The translations under genes and the position numbers were made by a program. Shown here piece after piece: positions 22,783-48,165 of a stretch of DNA of 48,165 nt. This DNA comes from Prevotella sp. Its GTDB lineage: Bacteria; Bacteroidota; Bacteroidia; Bacteroidales; Bacteroidaceae. Every line of letters begins with the position of its first letter. Position 1 is the first letter of the stretch. The notes under the pieces were generated by a model. The model was not told where the DNA came from. It saw only the letters and a program-made list of their open reading frames with translations, and searched no databases. The DNA lies in NCBI GenBank assembly GCA_017961115.1, contig JAGCXX010000015.1, forward strand, positions 1 through 48,165, in the 5' to 3' direction.

Positions 22783-25554
22783 TTATTTTATCAGCGAGAC
22801 AACACCGAACACACCAAGTCCGGTGAGACTGGCTGCGCCGCCATAAAGAAGGATGCTACTTGTCAGGTCGCGCTTCTTGTGCGGCACCAAACCAAACTGG
22901 AAAACGGTCTTGGAGTGATATTTCTCCCCCGGACGGAGCACGGTGGAAGGAAACTCCCTATGGTTGGGACTGTCGGCAAAATGCATGGTCTCGAGGCAGA
23001 CGGCACTTTGCCTCTGATAGGCGACACCTCTCTTGCCCACCAAACTGCCGTTGAGACCGTTGGCGGTATATACCTGCACGGCAGGTTGGTCGGTGAAGAC
23101 CGACAGTTGCCGTCCGCTCTTCTCGTCGCGAAGCACTACTGCAGGACGAGTCGTGATGCCGGGATGGCGGAGGGCGAAAGCATGGTCGTAACCTTTTGTT
23201 ATGCTCATCTGCTCATCATAAATCTCGATGTCGCTGCCAATGGTCTTCATCGTTGTGAAGTCAAACGGGGTATTGCGCACCCTCATCATTTTCCCATCCA
23301 CATTCTTTTGCTTGTCATAAGTGGCGATATACTTGCTGTCAACGTATAGTTGATGGCCGAGCACCGACTGCACGGTATCTCCTGAAAGATTGAAGAACGT
23401 ATGGTTGGACAGGTTGACAACGGTTGGTTTGTCAGTGACAGCTTCATACTCCACCTCCAGCGCATGGTTATGGGTCAGTCTATAGGTCACATAGGTGGTG
23501 AGCTTACCAGGAAAGCCATTCTCGCCATCGGGAGAGACATAGCGCAACCGCAGGGTGGTGTCGCTCACCGCTTCCACATCCCAGACATGGTCGGCAAAAC
23601 CCGGATACCCACCATGTGAGATATTTCCCTTGCCAACTCCTTGCAGGTCATAGGTTTTACCGTCGAGTGTGAAACGCGCTCTCTTGATACGCCCCACATA
23701 ACGTCCTACAACACTGCCGAAATTGTTTTTTTGCAGATGGTAGTCCTCGATATTGTCGAAACCGAGCACCACATCGCCAGCGATGCCATCCTTGTCGGGC
23801 ACCATCAGTGAGACGAGCCTTGCCCCATAGTTGGTGACACACGCTTCCATCCCATTGTTGACAAGCGTATAGAGCCGGGTTGGCTTGCCTTCCACCACAG
23901 ACTCAAAACGTTCAGGATTGAGGCCGGATGCCGTAGGACGAGTCGGGGTTGTCAGACTTCTAATCAGCAATGTCATGTTTTGGATGTATGCCTGGGTGGA
24001 GATACCCCTCACCTCACGGTTCTCATAAAGTGACGTGTCATACTCATCGCCCACCATAGTCTGCGTGTATGTGGTGATGTCGCTCTCTGTCTCCATGTCC
24101 TTTGGCAGCGGCTTGTAGGGATTCGACACCTGACGCAGCGAAACGAGCCACCGTCCTTTGTCATCAAGGGCTGCCACTACATCATCAGCAGAAGGCAACT
24201 GCATGCCCGACCGCAGGTGTCCCATCCCCCGATAGAAGTAGGTTTTAGGTTTGTCGGATACGTCGGACGGGTCGGACTTGTCAGACTTTCTGAGAGGTGA
24301 GTTGCGCTCCAAGTCTTTCTGCACCCATGATTTGGCTTCTTTCAGCGCCTGTCTCATCCGAGAGGGACTGACAGTAGCGAATGAACTGTAGTGAGCAATG
24401 GTGCCTTCGGTGTTCTCATCCATGTAATAGGCACCATTGGCAACATTCGAACCTTTCCGGTGCACATACAGCGGGCGCCGTGTGTTGGGGTCGATGAAGC
24501 GCGGCATCAGGATTTCATCCTCCTGCAGCGGTGTGCGGCGCACCTTGGCAGCCAGTGATGACGGCAACCGCTGACTCTCCAGAAAATCGATGGCGGCGGG
24601 CAGCCCCTCAAGAAACGAAGCATCGCCCGTGAGCTTATAATACTGTATCATCTGGAAGAACATGCCCACCGTCGTTCCTGTGTTCACCGACCGCGGCTCA
24701 TAGGAACGGGCATGTGCCGGCTGAAGGCTTGCAGGGTCATATTGGTCGGCCCATCCCGCCAATGGTTGCGGCTGCTGCAGGTCACGCATCAGGTGCATGG
24801 CCCGCAGGATGGGTTCCCGCAACTCCGCCATACCCAACTGCGTATAGCATTGGAGGAGGAAATCGATATTCTCCACCATCACATTGTCATTGAGTGTGAT
24901 GAATGATGAGTAATCAGCCTTTCCCCTGAAAGGATGGTCGTACATCAGCGGATAGCGCTGGGGCCATCCGCCATTGGCATACTGGCTCTTGACAAAGAAG
25001 TCGATGGCACGCTGAAGCGGTGCGAGCAAAGCCTCGTCGTGTTTTTCCAGGTAGATGCGCAGCAAGAATTCCGAACAGTGCTTTGTTGCCTCATCATCAA
25101 AAGTGGCGTTGCCATAGTAGTGTTGGAACTCCTCAAGCCTCCAAGCCTGCTTTCCGATGGTGGCATACCACTCGCGGATGGAATCCTCGCCCGCAAGGTC
25201 GAACATATAGTTCCACCCACCGCAGGACAACTGCCCGCCAATGATGCACATCGCCACCCTGCGGGCGTAGTCATAATAATACTCATCACCTGTGGCATGA
25301 TAGGCATCAAGCAGCACCTGCCCCATGTCGGGCGTACCGGGCGACTGCAGCCACACCATCGAGCGTCTCGCCTCCAATTCGCCCCACTGACGGGAGAAGT
25401 CGGGCAGATAGTTCCAAACAAAGCCACCATCCACCGACACCTCATCCATCATATACTGAGTGGCACGACGCATGGCCTGCCTCACCTCATGGTCGCCAGC
25501 CCTTATGCTCACGCCCATGAACAGCAACATGGCCCATATCACAAGTCGTCTCAT
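22783..25554 (-). CDS. Pectate lyase (PL10 type) fused to aldose 1-epimerase
   Basis: A 923-residue two-domain protein. A signal peptide (about 1-19) precedes an (alpha/alpha)-barrel pectic-acid lyase domain (about 22-420) with QSPGTPDMGQVLLDAYHATG, SQYANGGWPQRYPLMYDHP, YSSFITLNDNVMVENIDFLL and MPRFIDPNTRRPLYVHRKGS. A Ser/Asp/Lys repeat patch (about 423-436) and an unassigned stretch follow. From about 550 to 890 is a galactose-mutarotase domain with GSVVGRYVGRI, NLSNHTFFNLSG (catalytic His near 718), KGYDHAFALR and CLETMHFADSPNH (catalytic Glu near 853). The last 25 residues form a hydrophobic, membrane-segment-like tail. The lyase would release unsaturated galacturonides and the epimerase would speed anomer exchange. 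It is co-transcribed behind the KdgF-like cupin (38-bp gap). Confidence 0.85.
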   Translation of the reverse strand: MRRLVIWAMLLFMGVSIRAGDHEVRQAMRRATQYMMDEVSVDGGFVWNYLPDFSRQWGELEARRSMVWLQSPGTPDMGQVLLDAYHATGDEYYYDYARRVAMCIIGGQLSCGGWNYMFDLAGEDSIREWYATIGKQAWRLEEFQHYYGNATFDDEATKHCSEFLLRIYLEKHDEALLAPLQRAIDFFVKSQYANGGWPQRYPLMYDHPFRGKADYSSFITLNDNVMVENIDFLLQCYTQLGMAELREPILRAMHLMRDLQQPQPLAGWADQYDPASLQPAHARSYEPRSVNTGTTVGMFFQMIQYYKLTGDASFLEGLPAAIDFLESQRLPSSLAAKVRRTPLQEDEILMPRFIDPNTRRPLYVHRKGSNVANGAYYMDENTEGTIAHYSSFATVSPSRMRQALKEAKSWVQKDLERNSPLRKSDKSDPSDVSDKPKTYFYRGMGHLRSGMQLPSADDVVAALDDKGRWLVSLRQVSNPYKPLPKDMETESDITTYTQTMVGDEYDTSLYENREVRGISTQAYIQNMTLLIRSLTTPTRPTASGLNPERFESVVEGKPTRLYTLVNNGMEACVTNYGARLVSLMVPDKDGIAGDVVLGFDNIEDYHLQKNNFGSVVGRYVGRIKRARFTLDGKTYDLQGVGKGNISHGGYPGFADHVWDVEAVSDTTLRLRYVSPDGENGFPGKLTTYVTYRLTHNHALEVEYEAVTDKPTVVNLSNHTFFNLSGDTVQSVLGHQLYVDSKYIATYDKQKNVDGKMMRVRNTPFDFTTMKTIGSDIEIYDEQMSITKGYDHAFALRHPGITTRPAVVLRDEKSGRQLSVFTDQPAVQVYTANGLNGSLVGKRGVAYQRQSAVCLETMHFADSPNHREFPSTVLRPGEKYHSKTVFQFGLVPHKKRDLTSSILLYGGAASLTGLGVFGVVSLIK
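24251..24286 (-). repeat. GTCSGAC repeat, site A (inside the PL10-epimerase gene)
   Basis: Four 9-bp units, each a 7-bp odd palindrome GTCSGAC-like core plus two variable bases, sit in frame in the linker after the lyase domain and encode KSDKSDPSDVSDK. On the gene strand the core reads GTCCGAC, as in site C. Two of the four cores carry one substitution, so this is the most decayed copy. Confidence 0.8.
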
Positions 25555-26063: not shown

Positions 26064-26885
26064 ATGGGATTTCTAAAGACATTGTTTGGCGGCAAGGAAG
26101 AGTCGCCCGAGGAAAAGAAAGAGCGTGAGGAAGCTCACCACTTCGATGTGTTGCGCACCGATGGCGTCCGTGCCTTGCACACTGGCAGGTATGCCTTTGC
26201 CGTAACGTGCTTCACCAAGGCACTTGAGATCAAAGACGACCTGGAGACGCACGACTACCTCTCGCAGGCATATATCCAGAACGAGCAACTTCAAGAAGGC
26301 TACAACGAACTCAGCCTACTTGCCGAGGCACAGCCCGACAACATCCACATCCTCGCATCGATGGCCAAGGTGGCCTATATGATGGAGAACTACACGCTGA
26401 TGGCAGAATGCTGCGAGAAAGCCATGCACATCGACATGGACAACGCCGAAATCATGTTTCTCTATGCCCGTGCCTCACGCGGACAACATGATGCGGTGAA
26501 TGCCATCGCGATGTATACCAAGACGCTCATGCTCGATGAGAACTTCGCCTCAGCCAATCTTGAACGGGGTCAGTTGCTCTTGGAAGAGGGCGACATTGAT
26601 GGCGCCGAGGAGGATGCCGACCATCTGATGGAGGTGGCTCCCAACTCAGAAGACGTATTGCTGTTCAAGGCCAGCATCCTCATTCAGCAGCAACGAATCG
26701 GCGACGCCATCACTCTTTATGAAAGGGCCATTGAGGTCAACCCCTACTGCGAGGATGCCATAGAGGGATTGGAGAAATTAAGAGCCTTGACAAAAAGGTC
26801 GGACAAGTCAGACAAGTCGGACAGGTCAGACAAGTCGGACAAGTCGGACGAGTCGGACAGGTCGGACAGGTCGGACAAAGAATAA
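26064..26885 (+). CDS. Cytoplasmic TPR protein with repeat-derived SDK tail
   Basis: A 273-residue protein without signal peptide. A charged N-terminus (GGKEESPEEKKEREEAHH) leads into about six tetratricopeptide repeats between residues 30 and 240, for example GRYAFAVTCFTKALEIKDDL and GDAITLYERAIEVNPYCEDA. The last 29 residues consist of nine Ser-Asp-(Lys/Arg/Glu) units encoded by a 9-bp DNA repeat, ending in KE. TPR proteins are scaffolds; no partner is identifiable. It lies just upstream of the promoter of the aromatic operon, on the same strand but in its own unit. Confidence 0.85.
   Translation: MGFLKTLFGGKEESPEEKKEREEAHHFDVLRTDGVRALHTGRYAFAVTCFTKALEIKDDLETHDYLSQAYIQNEQLQEGYNELSLLAEAQPDNIHILASMAKVAYMMENYTLMAECCEKAMHIDMDNAEIMFLYARASRGQHDAVNAIAMYTKTLMLDENFASANLERGQLLLEEGDIDGAEEDADHLMEVAPNSEDVLLFKASILIQQQRIGDAITLYERAIEVNPYCEDAIEGLEKLRALTKRSDKSDKSDRSDKSDKSDESDRSDRSDKE
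26796..26876 (+). repeat. GTCSGAC repeat, site B (3' end of the TPR gene)
   Basis: Nine tandem 9-bp units of form (A/G)(A/G)GTCGGAC, in frame with the TPR gene and ending nine bases before its stop codon is complete. Two cores read GTCAGAC. The core is on the opposite strand sense (GTCGGAC) to sites A and C relative to the gene, yet both senses encode Ser-Asp. Confidence 0.9.
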
Positions 26886-26902
26886 AAAAAATGACGAATT
26901 GT

Positions 26903-26933
26903 TTTGTCAATTGGCGGGAAAGCATTAATTTTG
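26903..26933 (+). promoter_or_regulatory. Canonical promoter of the Phe/Tyr operon
   Basis: TTTG (26903-26906), exactly 19 bp, then TAATTTTG (26926-26933). Transcription would start near 26938-26940, about 20 bases before the leader-peptide ATG. Confidence 0.75.
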
Positions 26934-26960
26934 CAGCGAAAACGTCAAAATGATAATAAA

Positions 26961-27038
26961 ATGACAAGTTGGAGTACTTATTACTACTTCTATTTTTACT
27001 TTGCAAACCATTGCGAAGCGGGAAGTTGCATGCAGTAA
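26961..27038 (+). CDS. Phe/Tyr leader peptide of the aromatic amino acid operon
   Basis: A 25-codon ORF, ATG to TAA. Residues 7-14 read YYYFYFYF: eight consecutive aromatic codons (five Tyr, three Phe), with one Trp at position 4. It begins about 20 bases after the predicted transcription start of the pheA operon, behind an A-rich stretch (GATAATAAA) that would serve as a Bacteroidetes-type ribosome site. The downstream genes make exactly phenylalanine and tyrosine. The peptide's only likely job is to make the ribosome report the charging of tRNA-Tyr and tRNA-Phe. It overlaps segments 1 and 2 of the attenuator described separately. It is too short for most gene finders. Confidence 0.88.
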   Translation: MTSWSTYYYFYFYFANHCEAGSCMQ

Positions 27039-27099
27039 TCCAATAAGACGAGAATACCATACCGACAATAACCCGCTTCACCCAATGAGGCGGTTTTTT
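26999..27099 (+). promoter_or_regulatory. Four-segment transcription attenuator of the Phe/Tyr operon
   Basis: Segment 1 CTTTGC (26999-27004, over codons 13-15) pairs with segment 2 GCGAAG (27013-27018). Segment 2 extended, GAAGCGGG (27015-27022), is perfectly complementary to segment 3 CCCGCTTC (27072-27079), with a further TTG/CAA pairing (27026-27028 with 27066-27068). Segment 3 CCGCTTC (27073-27079) pairs with segment 4 GAGGCGG (27087-27093) as an intrinsic terminator with six T (27094-27099). A ribosome stalled on the Tyr/Phe codons covers segment 1, frees segment 2 to form the antiterminator 2:3, and transcription continues. With ample Tyr and Phe the terminator 3:4 forms. The architecture matches trp/phe attenuators. 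Confidence 0.82.
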
Positions 27100-27131
27100 G
27101 TTATATATATAATAATGAGTAGCACAAAGAA

Positions 27132-27974
27132 ATGAAGAGAATTGCCATTCAAGGACAAATCGGGTCGTTTCACGACATGGCAGCCCACCTGTATTTCGAG
27201 GGTGAGCAGGTGCAGATTATCTGCTGCTCCACCTTCGAGGAGGTTTATGACAGCATCCGTCGCGACCCCACCATTATCGGCATGACCGCCATCGAGAACA
27301 CCATCGCCGGCAGTCTGCTGCACAACTATGAGTTGCTGCGCGACTCAGGCACCACCGTGGTGGGTGAGCACAAGCTCCACATCCGCCACTGCATCTGCTG
27401 CCTGCCCGAAGATGACTGGGACACCATCGACGAGATACACTCCCATCCCGTAGCCCTCATGCAATGCCGTGGTTTCCTTGCCCAGCACCCGACACTCAAG
27501 GCGGTGGAGACAGAGGACACCGCCGGTGCCGCCGAGAACATCATGACCCATCAGCTGCGAGGCAAGGCAGCCATCTGCAGCGCTGAGGCAGCCCAGCTCC
27601 ATGGCATGAAGATTCTCGAGGACTCCATTGAGGACAACAAGCACAACTTCACCCGTTTCCTCGTGGTTTGCGACCCCCGGAAGGCAGATTTCCTCCGTCC
27701 GCTCAGCGAGACCGACAAGTCGAGCCTCGTCTTCTCGCTTCCCCACGAGGAAGGTGCTCTGTCGAAGGTACTCACCATCCTTTCGTTCTACAGCATCAAC
27801 CTCACCAAAATACAGTCGCTGCCCATCATCGGACACGAATGGGAATATCTGTTTTATGTCGACGTGACCTACAACAACCTCATCCGCTACCGCCAGAGCA
27901 TCGACGCCATCACCCCACTTACAAAAGAACTGAAAATTTTAGGAGAATATAGAAATGGAAGACAAACCAATTAG
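27132..27974 (+). CDS. pheA: Prephenate dehydratase
   Basis: A 280-residue monofunctional enzyme making phenylpyruvate from prephenate for phenylalanine synthesis. The catalytic prephenate dehydratase domain (about 1-180) starts IAIQGQIGSFHDMAAHLYF and has MTAIENTIAGSLL and the TRF motif in NFTRFLVV. A regulatory ACT domain follows (about 195-275, SLPHEEGALSKVLTILSFYS), where the usual ESRP motif is replaced by KIQSLP, so phenylalanine feedback may be altered. There is no chorismate mutase domain; that activity is supplied two genes downstream. It is the first structural gene after the attenuator and overlaps the aminotransferase by 20 bp. Confidence 0.95.
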   Translation: MKRIAIQGQIGSFHDMAAHLYFEGEQVQIICCSTFEEVYDSIRRDPTIIGMTAIENTIAGSLLHNYELLRDSGTTVVGEHKLHIRHCICCLPEDDWDTIDEIHSHPVALMQCRGFLAQHPTLKAVETEDTAGAAENIMTHQLRGKAAICSAEAAQLHGMKILEDSIEDNKHNFTRFLVVCDPRKADFLRPLSETDKSSLVFSLPHEEGALSKVLTILSFYSINLTKIQSLPIIGHEWEYLFYVDVTYNNLIRYRQSIDAITPLTKELKILGEYRNGRQTN

Positions 27975-29130
27975 CATACAGCCCGCAGAACGGCTCAGCC
28001 TCGTTCAGGAATATTACTTCAGCCGCAAGCTCAAGGAGGTGGCACGCCTCAATGCCGAGGGGCACGACATCATCAGCCTCGCCATCGGCAGTCCGGACAT
28101 GCCTCCCTCACCGCAGACCATCAACCGCCTGTGCGAGGTGGCACAACGCCCCGACAGCCACGGCTACCAACCGACGATGGGCACTCCCGAGCTGCGCAGC
28201 GCGATGGCGGCTTTCTACAAGAGATGGTATGGCGTCACCCTCGACCCCGCCACAGAGGTGTTGCCGCTCATCGGCAGCAAGGAAGGCATCCTCCACGTGA
28301 CGCTCGCCTTCGTCAACCCCGGTGACGGCGTGCTCGTACCCAATCCCGGCTACCCCACCTACACCTCACTCAGCAAACTCCTCGGTGCCCGCATCGTCAA
28401 CTACAACCTGCGTGAGGACAACGGATGGCAGCCTGACTTCGACGAGTTGGAGAAAATGGACCTCACCGGCATCCGACTGATGTGGACCAACTATCCCAAC
28501 ATGCCCACTGGAGGCAATGCGGTGATGGAGACCTATGAGCGGCTTGTGGACTTCGCCCGGCGGCACGGTATTGTTGTGGTGAACGACAACCCTTATTCCT
28601 TCATCCTCAACGAGCATCCCATGTCGCTGCTGCAAGTGGAGGGCGCCCGCGACTGCTGCATCGAGTTCAACTCAATGAGCAAGAGCCACAACATGCCGGG
28701 ATGGCGTGTCGGCCTCTGCGCCACCAACGCCACCTTCATCTCCTGGATTCTCAAGGTGAAGAGCAACATCGACAGCGGCACCTTCAGGGGCATCCAACTG
28801 GCTGCCGCCGAGGCATATGCCAATGATGAGGCATGGCACCGCGAGGCCAATATCGAGACCTACGGCCGACGCCGCGCCATCGCCGAGGAAATCATGCGGA
28901 CGCTCGGATGCACGTTCGACCCCTCTCAAGTGGGTATGTTCCTCTGGGGCAAGATACCCGACTGCTACACCGATGCCGAGGAACTCACCGAGCGTGTGCT
29001 CCATGAGGCGAGGGTGTTCATCACACCTGGTTTCATCTTCGGCAGCAACGGACAGCACTACATCCGCATCTCGCTCTGCGCCAAGGAGGACAAGATGCAC
29101 GAGGCGCTCGAGAGAATCAAGAAAATATAG
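27955..29130 (+). CDS. Class I/II PLP-dependent aminotransferase of the aromatic operon
   Basis: A 391-residue fold-type I aminotransferase. The N-terminal substrate arm and LAIGSPDMPPSP precede the glycine loop at GTPELRSAMAAFY; WTNYPNMPTGGNA and VVNDNPYSFIL follow. The PLP lysine is Lys243 in SMSKSHNMPGWRVG, and the distal arginine lies in YIRISLC. The sequence resembles LL-diaminopimelate/aspartate-type aminotransferases, but its place between pheA and aroG/tyrA indicates that it transaminates phenylpyruvate and hydroxyphenylpyruvate, or prephenate. Start at ATG 27955, overlapping pheA. A GTCSGAC repeat begins immediately after its stop codon. Confidence 0.9.
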   Translation: MEDKPISIQPAERLSLVQEYYFSRKLKEVARLNAEGHDIISLAIGSPDMPPSPQTINRLCEVAQRPDSHGYQPTMGTPELRSAMAAFYKRWYGVTLDPATEVLPLIGSKEGILHVTLAFVNPGDGVLVPNPGYPTYTSLSKLLGARIVNYNLREDNGWQPDFDELEKMDLTGIRLMWTNYPNMPTGGNAVMETYERLVDFARRHGIVVVNDNPYSFILNEHPMSLLQVEGARDCCIEFNSMSKSHNMPGWRVGLCATNATFISWILKVKSNIDSGTFRGIQLAAAEAYANDEAWHREANIETYGRRRAIAEEIMRTLGCTFDPSQVGMFLWGKIPDCYTDAEELTERVLHEARVFITPGFIFGSNGQHYIRISLCAKEDKMHEALERIKKI

Positions 29131-29173
29131 GTCCGACAAGTCCGACAAGTCCGACGAGTCCGACGAGTCCGAC
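29131..29173 (+). repeat. GTCSGAC repeat, site C (aminotransferase/DAHP synthase gap)
   Basis: Four complete 9-bp units and one 7-bp core (GTCCGAC with AA or GA spacers) begin at the base after the aminotransferase stop codon. They make up most of the 74-bp gap before the DAHP synthase gene. All five cores are perfect. Confidence 0.9.
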
Positions 29174-29204
29174 AAATGAATAATAATATAAAAACGATAT
29201 AATT

Positions 29205-30269
29205 ATGGAATTGCAACTTCAACCCCTGAGATTACCCAGCGACAACGAACGCCCCGTAGTCATTGCCGGACCCTGTTCGGCGGAGACAGAGGAGCAAGTG
29301 ATGGAGACCGCCTTGCAACTGGCCCGCAAAGGTTGCCACATGTTCCGTGCCGGTGTCTGGAAACCCCGCACCAAACCCGGCGGTTTTGAAGGCAACGGTG
29401 AGATGGCCCTGCCCTGGCTCCAGCGTGTAAGACAAGAGACGGGCATGCTCGTCGCCACCGAGGTGGCAACTCCCGAGCATGTGGAATTGGCGATGAAATA
29501 TGGCATCGACATCCTTTGGATTGGTGCCCGCACCACTGCCAACCCCTTTGCCATGCAGGCCCTTGCCGACTCGTTGAGAGGCATTGACGTGCCAGTTTTT
29601 GTGAAAAACCCCGTCAACCCCGACCTGGAACTATGGATTGGTGCCCTCGAGCGCATCAACCAAGCTGGTATCACCCGTCTGGCAGCCGTCCACCGCGGTT
29701 TCTCCAGCTATGACAAGAAAATCTACCGCAATCTCCCCATGTGGCAGATACCTATCGAACTGCGCCGCCGCATCCCTTCGCTGCCCATCATCTGCGACCC
29801 CAGCCACATCGGTGGACGGCGCGAGCTCATCGCCCCCCTCTGCCAGCAGTCGATGGACCTCGGCTTCGACGGTCTGCTCGTGGAATCCCACTGCGACCCC
29901 GATGCCGCATGGAGCGACGCCAAGCAGCAGGTCACTCCCGATGTGCTCGACTACATCCTCTCGCTCCTCGTCATCCGCGACGAGAAAGTCACCACTGAGG
30001 GTATCCACGAACTGCGTCAGCAGATTGACGAACTCGACAACCAACTGATGAACCTGCTTGCCAAGCGTATGCGCGTATGCCGCGAAATCGGACAATACAA
30101 GAAGGAGCACAACATGACCGTGCTGCAACCCGTAAGGTATGGTGAGATTCTCGACAAGCGCGGCGCTCAAGGCTCACTATGCGGCATGGACAGCGAGTTT
30201 GTGAAGAAAGTCTTCGAAAGCGTGCATGAGGAAAGTGTAAGGCAGCAAATGGAGATTATCAACCAATAA
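29205..30269 (+). CDS. Bifunctional DAHP synthase / chorismate mutase
   Basis: A 354-residue fusion. Residues about 1-262 are a KDPG-like DAHP synthase (PVVIAGPCSAETEEQ, GVWKPRTKPGGFEGNG, LAAVHRGFSSYDKK, IICDPSHIGGRRE) that condenses phosphoenolpyruvate and erythrose 4-phosphate. Residues about 265-350 are a type II chorismate mutase (IHELRQQIDELDNQLMNLLA, RVCREIGQYKKEHN) that makes prephenate. The fusion places the first shikimate step and the branch step in one protein, as is usual in Bacteroidetes. It is the third gene of the attenuated operon and lies 16 bp before tyrA. Confidence 0.95.
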   Translation: MELQLQPLRLPSDNERPVVIAGPCSAETEEQVMETALQLARKGCHMFRAGVWKPRTKPGGFEGNGEMALPWLQRVRQETGMLVATEVATPEHVELAMKYGIDILWIGARTTANPFAMQALADSLRGIDVPVFVKNPVNPDLELWIGALERINQAGITRLAAVHRGFSSYDKKIYRNLPMWQIPIELRRRIPSLPIICDPSHIGGRRELIAPLCQQSMDLGFDGLLVESHCDPDAAWSDAKQQVTPDVLDYILSLLVIRDEKVTTEGIHELRQQIDELDNQLMNLLAKRMRVCREIGQYKKEHNMTVLQPVRYGEILDKRGAQGSLCGMDSEFVKKVFESVHEESVRQQMEIINQ

Positions 30270-30285: not shown

Positions 30286-31062
30286 ATGAAAATATTAGTT
30301 TTGGGAGCAGGCAAGATGGGCAGTTTCTTCCTCGACCTGCTGAGTTTCGACCATGAGATGGCGGTCTATGAGAAAGACCCGCTCAGGATGCGCTTCACCT
30401 ACAACACGCAGCGCTTCACCACCGTGGAGGAGATAGAGGCCTTCCAACCCGAACTGGTCATCAACGCGGTGACGGTGAAGTACACCATCCCCGCCTTCAA
30501 CGAAGTTATCCCCCACCTGCCCTCCGACTGCATCATCAGCGATATCGCTTCGGTGAAGACCGGTCTGCATGAGTACTATGAACAGTGCGGCCGCCGCTAT
30601 GTGTCGACCCACCCCATGTTCGGTCCCACCTTTGCCAACCTCCAGCAACTCAGTGAGGAGAACGCCATCATCATCAACGAGGGCGACTACATGGGGCGCA
30701 TCTTCTTCAAGGACCTCTACAGCCGTCTGGGTCTCAATATCTATGAGTATACCTTCGACGAACACGACCGCACCGTGGCTTATTCACTAAGTATCCCCTT
30801 CGTCAGCACCTTTGTCTTCGCTGCCGTGATGAAGCATCAGGACGCACCTGGCACCACCTTCAAGCGGCATATGCGCATCGCAAAAGGAGTGCTCAACGAG
30901 GATGACTACCTGTTGCAGGAAATCCTCTTCAATCCCTACACGCACGACCAGGTCTCACAGATACGCACCGAACTCAAGGAACTGCTTCATATCATCGACA
31001 CGAAGGATGCCGACGGCATGAAAGCATACCTCACCAAGATACGCAACAATGTTGCCCGATGA
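30286..31062 (+). CDS. tyrA: Prephenate dehydrogenase
   Basis: A 258-residue NAD(P)-dependent enzyme that oxidatively decarboxylates prephenate to 4-hydroxyphenylpyruvate for tyrosine. The Rossmann motif ILVLGAGKMGSFFLDLL is at 2-18, ISDIASVKTGLHEYY near 84-98, and the prephenate-site STHPMFGPTFANL near 106-118. The helical C-terminal domain includes AYSLSIPFVSTFVFAAVM. There is no ACT or mutase domain, and the protein is at the short end of the family. It is the last gene of the operon. A/T-rich sequence with a weak hairpin (AAAGCA 31093-31098 / TGCTTT 31116-31121, then T) follows. Confidence 0.93.
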   Translation: MKILVLGAGKMGSFFLDLLSFDHEMAVYEKDPLRMRFTYNTQRFTTVEEIEAFQPELVINAVTVKYTIPAFNEVIPHLPSDCIISDIASVKTGLHEYYEQCGRRYVSTHPMFGPTFANLQQLSEENAIIINEGDYMGRIFFKDLYSRLGLNIYEYTFDEHDRTVAYSLSIPFVSTFVFAAVMKHQDAPGTTFKRHMRIAKGVLNEDDYLLQEILFNPYTHDQVSQIRTELKELLHIIDTKDADGMKAYLTKIRNNVAR

Positions 31063-48035: not shown

Positions 48036-48165
48036 GATGAAAGATGAAGGATGAAAGATGAAGGATTGATACCACGTTAGTAATCATCTGTCTAAACTCC
48101 TAAAATGGATGAAGGATGAAAGATGAAGGATTGATACCACGTTAGTAATCATCTGTCTAAACTCC
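48036..48165 (+). repeat. 65-bp tandem repeat with heptamer head, running to the window edge
   Basis: Two identical 58-bp copies (48043-48100 and 48108-48165), 65 bp apart. Each starts with GATGAAG/GATGAAA heptamers and continues into a unique part (ATACCACGTTAGTAATCATC and onward, ending AAACTCC). The 7-bp joints differ (GATGAAA before the first copy, TAAAATG before the second). The array may continue past the window. Confidence 0.9.

Follow-up and report, generated by a model that had tools for sequence, protein, structure and literature searches.

The 48,165-nt stretch of Prevotella sp. DNA analysed here (the window; contig JAGCXX010000015.1) carries, immediately ahead of genes for phenylalanine and tyrosine synthesis, what is very probably a classical multivalent ribosome-mediated transcription attenuator of the Tyr/Phe operon. 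The leader open reading frame (ORF), its Tyr and Phe codons, the three mutually exclusive stems, their conservation in relatives and the match between the codons and the operon are all found by sequence. The intergenic stretch between a TPR protein gene and pheA (26886-27131) contains, in this order and on the + strand, a promoter, the ORF and the three exclusive hairpins. The promoter (26903-26933) follows the TTTG-type consensus of the Bacteroidetes, with TTTG at 26903-26906, an N19 spacer and TAATTTTG at 26926-26933. The leader peptide ORF (26961-27038; 25 codons, ATG to TAA) encodes MTSWSTYYYFYFYFANHCEAGSCMQ, and its regulatory codons 7-14 (26979-27002), TAT TAC TAC TTC TAT TTT TAC TTT, read YYYFYFYF. 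Segment 1 (CUUUGC, 26999-27004) overlaps the final Tyr-Phe codons and is complementary to GCGAAG at 27013-27018, the 5′ portion of segment 2 (GCGAAGCGGG, 27013-27022). Segment 2 can alternatively pair through GAAGCGGG at 27015-27022 with CCCGCTTC at 27072-27079, forming the 2:3 antiterminator stem. Segment 3 (CCCGCUUC, 27072-27079) in turn contributes CCGCTTC (27073-27079) to the 3:4 stem with GAGGCGG (27087-27093) of segment 4, and six T residues at 27094-27099 complete the intrinsic terminator (segment 4 and T run, 27087-27099), which sits between the leader ORF and pheA and ends 32 bases before the latter. The preliminary description of this DNA had placed the promoter, the 25-codon ORF with its aromatic run, and the 1:2, 2:3, 3:4 exclusion set followed by six T exactly where we found them, the ORF being correct to the base.

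A chance origin of the ORF together with the stems is very unlikely. In 5000 shuffles of the intergenic region that preserved dinucleotide composition, no ORF beginning with ATG and 8-45 aa long had Tyr or Phe at eight or more of nine consecutive residues, and ORFs with at least six of nine such residues were absent from 4000 random 450-nt stretches taken from the rest of the window and appeared in one of 1000 shuffled upstream regions of relatives. The terminator score was equalled in 0/300 shuffles. With shuffling confined to the region between codon 15 and the terminator, which was kept fixed, the score of the 2:3 antiterminator was equalled in 1/2000 cases. Folding of truncated window RNA yielded the 2:3 stem with a start at 27013 and the 3:4 stem with a start at 27024, which hides segment 2. 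For RNA starting at 26999, the centroid consisted of 1:2 and 3:4, the minimum-energy structure (26999-27100) contained 2:3, and 12 of 200 shuffles folded at least as well; the thermodynamics of the isolated full stretch from 26999 are an ambiguous mixture.

The downstream operon, also on the + strand, starts with pheA (27132-27974), encoding a prephenate dehydratase (Pfam PF00800) without a chorismate mutase domain, followed by a class I/II aminotransferase gene (27955-29130; PF00155), a gene for a fusion of DAHP synthase with type II chorismate mutase (29205-30269; PF00793 and PF01817) and tyrA, encoding prephenate dehydrogenase (30286-31062; PF02153). Pfam thus supported the four genes named earlier as a pheA-aminotransferase-DAHP synthase-tyrA operon, with the correction that the third is a DAHP synthase/chorismate mutase fusion. 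The best models for the aminotransferase were LL-diaminopimelate-aminotransferase-like with scores below their cut-offs, so that its role was assigned from context; if it acts there, the operon comprises the shikimate entry step and every reaction that turns chorismate into Phe or Tyr.

By analogy with established attenuators, ribosome stalling, ribosome-polymerase coupling, termination and the amino acid response would be linked as follows. A ribosome would translate the leader peptide while closely following RNA polymerase. Under a shortage of charged tRNA-Tyr or tRNA-Phe, it would stall at one of the last Tyr/Phe codons and cover segment 1, leaving segment 2 to pair with segment 3; the terminator would be blocked, and pheA, the aminotransferase gene, the DAHP synthase/chorismate mutase gene and tyrA would be transcribed. 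With both amino acids plentiful, the ribosome would pass over segment 2 to the stop codon and allow 3:4 to form, and with no ribosome on the leader the 1:2 stem would form and 3:4 with it. Either way, formation of 3:4 would end transcription near 27099, and a short supply of either amino acid would be predicted to open the operon. The geometry of the leader is consistent with this scheme. A stalled ribosome should end about 15 nt beyond the first base of the codon at which it stalls, and in the window segment 2 pairs from 27015, 15 nt past the first base of the last aromatic codon (27000), so that a stall there should hide segment 1 and free segment 2. The earlier proposal that a stall at codon 14 falls on segment 1 fits this placement. 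Were the ribosome to stall on the opening codons of the run, 1:2 could still form. Sensing should thus fall to the last four or five regulatory codons, which are probably the sensors and show the strongest conservation.

We examined this conservation in a genus set of 200 loci, which joined a search of 150 genomes to 80 named loci from a genome scan (records titled Prevotella, Prevotellaceae or Xylanibacter), counted the window's own locus twice, and gave 183 distinct upstream regions, the window's included. PheA was present in 120/150 genus genomes, and its nearest relative was 98% identical (MAG RUG11288). A script detected a Tyr/Phe leader before pheA in 192/200 loci and 175/183 distinct upstream regions, which bore out the suggestion that the codon run should be kept in relatives. 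Its carriers include the cultured relatives Prevotella ruminicola KHT3 (L198) and Xylanibacter rodentium (L185). Among the eight script-negative loci, the leader was missed by the filter in two (L129 and L134) and the upstream region of L161 is cut by a contig end; the element is absent at pheA in five of the 200 loci (L168, L076, L098, L105 and L113), and three of these five genomes keep it before an aminotransferase operon. PheA and the RNA element occurred together in 118 of the 150 genomes and were both missing in 28, with two genomes carrying only the one and two only the other (Fisher 1e-25, uncorrected for relatedness). The genomes with neither, about a fifth, include several estimated to be 99% complete, and their owners are probable Phe auxotrophs or users of another route. 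A TAnnTTTG motif lay no more than 65 nt upstream of the leader ATG in 183/191 leader loci (not de-duplicated), compared to 12/191 when those 65 nt were shuffled.

Within the 175 leaders, the last five aromatic positions were aromatic in 98-100%, compared to 45% for the position before them. The final aromatic codon was TTT in 174/175 and the preceding one TAC in 173/175; overall, TTT outnumbered TTC by 558 to 80 in leaders, as opposed to 319:907 in the first 200 codons of pheA. The fixing of TTT and TAC codons, although pheA prefers TTC, indicates that the segment 1 nucleotides, besides the amino acids, seem to be constrained. Counted from the first base of the final aromatic codon, segment 2 starts 15 nt downstream, as in the window, in 150 of the 167 leaders in which the segment 2 motif was found. 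A nearly constant AAGTTGCGTGTAGATTTCAACTTATGA was also seen directly 3′ of segment 2 in many relatives (alignment columns 80-102, e.g. L185 and L007); it could fold into a further hairpin around the stop codon of the leader, perhaps a pause signal, and the window lacks its 3′ half.

Covariation was assessed in an alignment of 61 loci, a deliberately diverse selection out of 142 non-redundant ones. A consensus fold of all its sequences gave a mixture, and since such folding cannot show exclusive stems, these were counted one by one; the sequences are related, so the shuffle counts are not to be read as probabilities. Signal was clear for the 3:4 stem, with both-side changes at 10/13 pairs and a covariation score of 0.335 vs 0.203 in shuffled alignments. 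It was also clear for the 1:2 stem, which showed near-complete pairing (98.8% of cells) and a score of 0.256 vs 0.166 shuffled; one pair, A-U in 35 sequences and G-C in 14, contributed 18 of the 22 both-side changes in this stem, whose total of two pairs with such changes was reached in 72/500 shuffles. The 2:3 stem gave a modest signal: 87.1% of cells were paired in the 61 sequences vs 84.7% shuffled and 38-47% when slid, both sides had changed at 7/11 pairs, and the score was 0.110 vs 0.093 shuffled, while a register slid by -2 contained more cells changed on both sides than the true one (13 vs 11). Of the two stems for which covariation in relatives had been put forward as a check, 3:4 therefore passed clearly and 2:3 only modestly.

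The element extends well beyond the genus. A covariance model, which its own training members match by construction and whose E-values are rough, found the element in 120/150 genus genomes, in 160/201 family genomes covering 25 of 30 sampled genera, and in 39/198 sampled genomes of the order, of which 80 contain PheA itself; weak family matches in one genus, g24, include one before another operon. Matches were confirmed by eye or script for the loci that were fetched. A Tyr/Phe ORF was absent at two order-level matches, L279 beside pheA and L266 elsewhere. The latter, a second match in genome G402, was taken as false, as were the secondary weak matches L224 and L225 (genomes G016 and G013), where neither a Tyr/Phe ORF nor any of the four operon genes is present. 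The 29 best PheA loci from elsewhere in the phylum, in other orders and classes, were then inspected; an upstream ORF with at least six of nine residues Tyr, Phe or Trp was seen in 26, three of which lie in other classes (L322, L327 and L344). In 20 weaker PheA loci, drawn from 98 more with a match, an aromatic ORF was present at 4/4 loci of the same class, and one doubtful case (L360) was seen among 16 loci of other classes. Altogether, a Tyr/Phe(/Trp) leader precedes pheA in 27/30 loci from the rest of the class, plus three from other classes. The wording "in a Bacteroidales" in the preliminary description understates this range.

The RNA architecture was largely retained outside the genus. 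In 100/100 distinct single leaders outside the genus the terminator was reached by at most 1/20 shuffles, and in 91/100 the antiterminator was reached by at most 5/100 shuffles, the other 9/100 missing the 5% level. The gap between the aromatic stretch and the 5′ arm of the antiterminator had a median of 12 nt and measured 9-16 nt in 72/91, and the sequences of the arms differed widely. A Trp codon was observed in or beside the Tyr/Phe run at seven loci of other orders of the class (L323, L324, L328, L331, L340, L346 and L349); such leaders may sense Trp as well as Tyr and Phe. Two complete Tyr/Phe attenuators stand in series before pheA in several families, both inside and outside the order. 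At seven of nine tandem loci checked (L325, L387, L391, L395, L396, L398 and L431) both leaders had a terminator and antiterminator reached by no more than 6/200 shuffles; L347 failed at both leaders and L426 at one.

These counts bear on the possibility that control is exerted mainly through translation or polarity, by exposing or hiding the pheA start or by preventing Rho-dependent termination, rather than through the intrinsic terminator. Seven genus loci without a script-found T-run terminator (L015, L021, L038, L106, L123, L177 and L193) show a hairpin with a poor T run, as this possibility would allow. A T-run terminator was nevertheless found by script in 185/192 leader-bearing genus loci (misplaced in two, L017 and L154), as well as in all the single leaders outside the genus, and the distance from terminator to pheA varies from 8 to over 200 nt, a wide range that fits termination better than masking of a start site. 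We consider such control highly improbable as the main mode, and transcription attenuation at the intrinsic terminator remains the preferred reading.

Operons that have been split provided a natural experiment on the leader codons, the strongest of the new evidence. Loci were classed by gene content after identical upstream regions had been removed, four further loci being too short to class. The joint class, defined by pheA with the aminotransferase, DAHP synthase/chorismate mutase or tyrA gene within 4 kb downstream, comprised 292 loci (184 of the genus), many of them too short to show tyrA itself. A leader was present in 284/292, and its best nine residues contained both Tyr and Phe in 284/284, with a mean Tyr share of 0.51 (range 0.14-0.88). 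Solo pheA genes carried a leader in 4/13 loci, from four families. Three of these four leaders have no Tyr in the run (L378 MYNTSASFFSNFFFVFTWRR, L381 MRRNSFRFFFFFAFFFCNGRNGVSYLY and L393 MTRFFTHFFFFFTQQ); L429, the remaining one, is weaker: its run includes a single Tyr, five of its nine residues are aromatic, and its antiterminator is at chance level (9/100). No leader was found within 500 nt of the remaining 9/13 solo pheA genes, two of which are distant homologues (L383 and L384). Aminotransferase-first operons without pheA had a leader in 11/11 cases, with a mean Tyr share of 0.64 (0.50-0.83). The expectation that pheA-less operons would drop Phe codons wholly proved wrong, as the minimum Tyr share was 0.50 and Phe was always kept. 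With kinship ignored, the Tyr share differed between joint and solo loci (Mann-Whitney, 0.0005) and between joint and pheA-less loci (0.0025). The same trend appeared inside single genomes: G258 has a Phe-only leader at pheA and one of five Tyr and one Phe codons at its aminotransferase operon (L216), G375 a Phe-only leader at pheA and a mixed one at its aminotransferase operon (L274), and G365 a Phe-only leader at pheA and a mixed one at a tyrA-DAHP synthase/chorismate mutase operon (L412). Leader specificity thus follows operon content, and the operon makes the amino acids that its leader reads.

A further variant was seen in g24, a genus of the same family, where five of six loci have a leader of 4-7 aromatic codons, nearly all Tyr, followed by a terminator before an operon headed by an AMP-forming ligase gene (L249, position 6071 on the - strand, L292, L294, L295 and L296). 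In L249 the ligase gene is followed by genes for an ACT-domain protein, a sodium:solute symporter and two 2-oxoacid oxidoreductase subunits. We take this ligase/oxidoreductase gene set to make aromatic amino acids from arylacetates, and the operon is probably arylacetate-using. L292 and L296 had a clear antiterminator, that of L291 (the same place as L249) was at the 5% level, and that of L294 did not exceed chance. The six g24 genomes gave no PheA match in four cases and a match of only 28% in two. Of the loci from the 30 best among 89 matching genomes, 24 lay in the family outside g24; a Tyr leader before the AMP-ligase gene was found at 0/24.

Retuning of the codons also weighs against the two remaining explanations. 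One holds that the ORF encodes a functional small hydrophobic or aromatic peptide, or a trans-acting leader peptide, and that the terminator is incidental. The peptide is indeed conserved, including a C-terminal CEAGSCV in many relatives; this C-terminal part, however, follows the RNA, because the reading frame of several relatives ends within segment 2 (…YFYFAREL in L127, …YFYFASKL in L011) while the segment 2 nucleotides are kept, and CEAGSCV looks like an echo of segment 2. The N-terminus of the peptide varies, and its aromatic composition shifts with operon content, which makes a function of the peptide itself scarcely credible. Equally hard to credit is that another sensor, such as a T-box, a riboswitch or an RNA-binding protein, acts on the terminator with the ORF as a mere spacer: a terminator/antiterminator pair is compatible with such sensors, but in the window no Rfam family (release 15) came up to its cut-off, permissive scanning of 26880-27160 returned one match, to OrzO-P and at chance level (16.2 bits vs a cut-off of 60), conservation lies in the codons and the segments with the stretch between segments 2 and 3 variable in length and sequence, and a separate sensor would not account for the retuning. 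Returning to the leader-peptide attenuator, we find it somewhat more probable than not that Bacteroidota carry an ancient, modular form of it for aromatic amino acids. This form would probably predate the split of the class, would stay with the Tyr-side operon when pheA moves, and would have been retuned in its codons: mixed in joint operons, Phe-only at solo pheA, somewhat richer in Tyr at pheA-less operons, nearly Tyr-only at arylacetate-salvage operons, with some Trp in places and doubling in several families.

A search of the window's own genome for the Tyr/Phe codon-run pattern returned ten places, three of them within the leader described here. Those on contigs C157, C219 and C222 were rejected as a second leader, being by eye not leader-like in sequence, and a place on contig C35 reads as a Leu run in its ATG frame. 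At this place (L281, 1464-1547, + strand) a TTACTA repeat generates a short ATG ORF with eight consecutive Leu codons upstream of an apparent flippase gene; a length-variable repeat and a Leu leader are both possible. The window also contains 9-base tandem repeats of the GTCGGACAA type, with 18 pattern matches (at most two mismatches) vs 0.25 expected. They lie at 26798-26878, where they code for the Ser-Asp-Lys tails with which the TPR protein ends, at 29131-29175, directly after the aminotransferase stop, and at 24253-24286, inside the 22783-25554 gene, and they look like an interspersed repeat at gene ends. A 65-base exact repeat in 1.9 copies (48043-48165) forms the end of both the window and the contig and possibly caused the contig break.

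Leader-peptide transcription attenuation was worked out in enterobacteria, and the present element, which has the defining features that sequence can reveal, appears to work like the enterobacterial examples. The E. coli pheL-pheA and pheM-pheST attenuators are Phe leaders. Like the former, the window element combines a short cognate-codon leader, exclusive stems and a T-run terminator upstream of prephenate dehydratase; unlike either, it reads Tyr as well as Phe, and where the E. coli pheA leader precedes one fused chorismate mutase/prephenate dehydratase gene, that of the window precedes a whole Phe/Tyr operon including DAHP synthase. In design, it resembles the multivalent Ile, Val and Leu leader of E. 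coli ilvGMEDA, whose single peptide senses more than one end product of a branched pathway, the amino acids, pathway and phylum being different. Within the Bacteroidetes, attenuators may reportedly have been predicted by Lopatovskaya in 2010. The Bacteroid-trp RNA (RF01692), which we take to be associated with trp genes, had no match in the window's genome (86% complete), and a control search matched 1/14 genomes, that of Bacteroides ihuae. It is like the window element in being a predicted cis-regulatory RNA of the same phylum, and was described, in the portion of the source available, as a candidate motif of Bacteroidetes (PMC2864571).

Earlier work had come near this element. A 2021 transcriptome of Flavobacterium psychrophilum, in the available part of its text, reports a structured 5′ element before pheA, found also in other Flavobacteriaceae genera and without an Rfam match, and, as a separate point, strong hints that amino acid operons are controlled by leader-peptide attenuation (PMC9723704). 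That element shares its position 5′ of pheA with ours and belongs to another order, and the same part of the text names no Tyr/Phe codons or stems. An attenuator in this position, which the preliminary description considered worth describing, is therefore not wholly new, although its joint Tyr/Phe form was not found in print; nor were its range, retuning and tandem forms, among open-licence papers represented mostly by titles and the beginnings of abstracts. Excerpts of a B. thetaiotaomicron transcript map mention short ORFs reminiscent of leader peptides (PMC7366714). The tandem attenuators of relatives have a precedent in Salmonella mgtCBR, where, according to the accessible text, two leader ORFs stand in series before one operon (PMC3641672); the window has a single attenuator, and in its relatives both leaders read Tyr/Phe. 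A survey from 2010 states, in the passages available, that to its authors' knowledge no such attenuation had been shown outside Proteobacteria and Actinobacteria before their own Firmicutes cases (PMC2965389).

The window therefore adds a complete candidate attenuator in the Bacteroidales, an order abundant in the rumen and gut. Its predicted role is to sense both end products simultaneously and to govern the two branches along with the first shikimate step. The split operons already supply the material for testing how leader codons change in evolution as operon content does. Bacteroidota start translation without Shine-Dalgarno pairing, and an attenuator of this kind would imply close ribosome-polymerase coupling in such a phylum. 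For F. psychrophilum, translation start without this pairing is noted in the available text of the transcriptome study (PMC9723704). As a candidate regulator, the element would predict when such bacteria make Phe and Tyr themselves.
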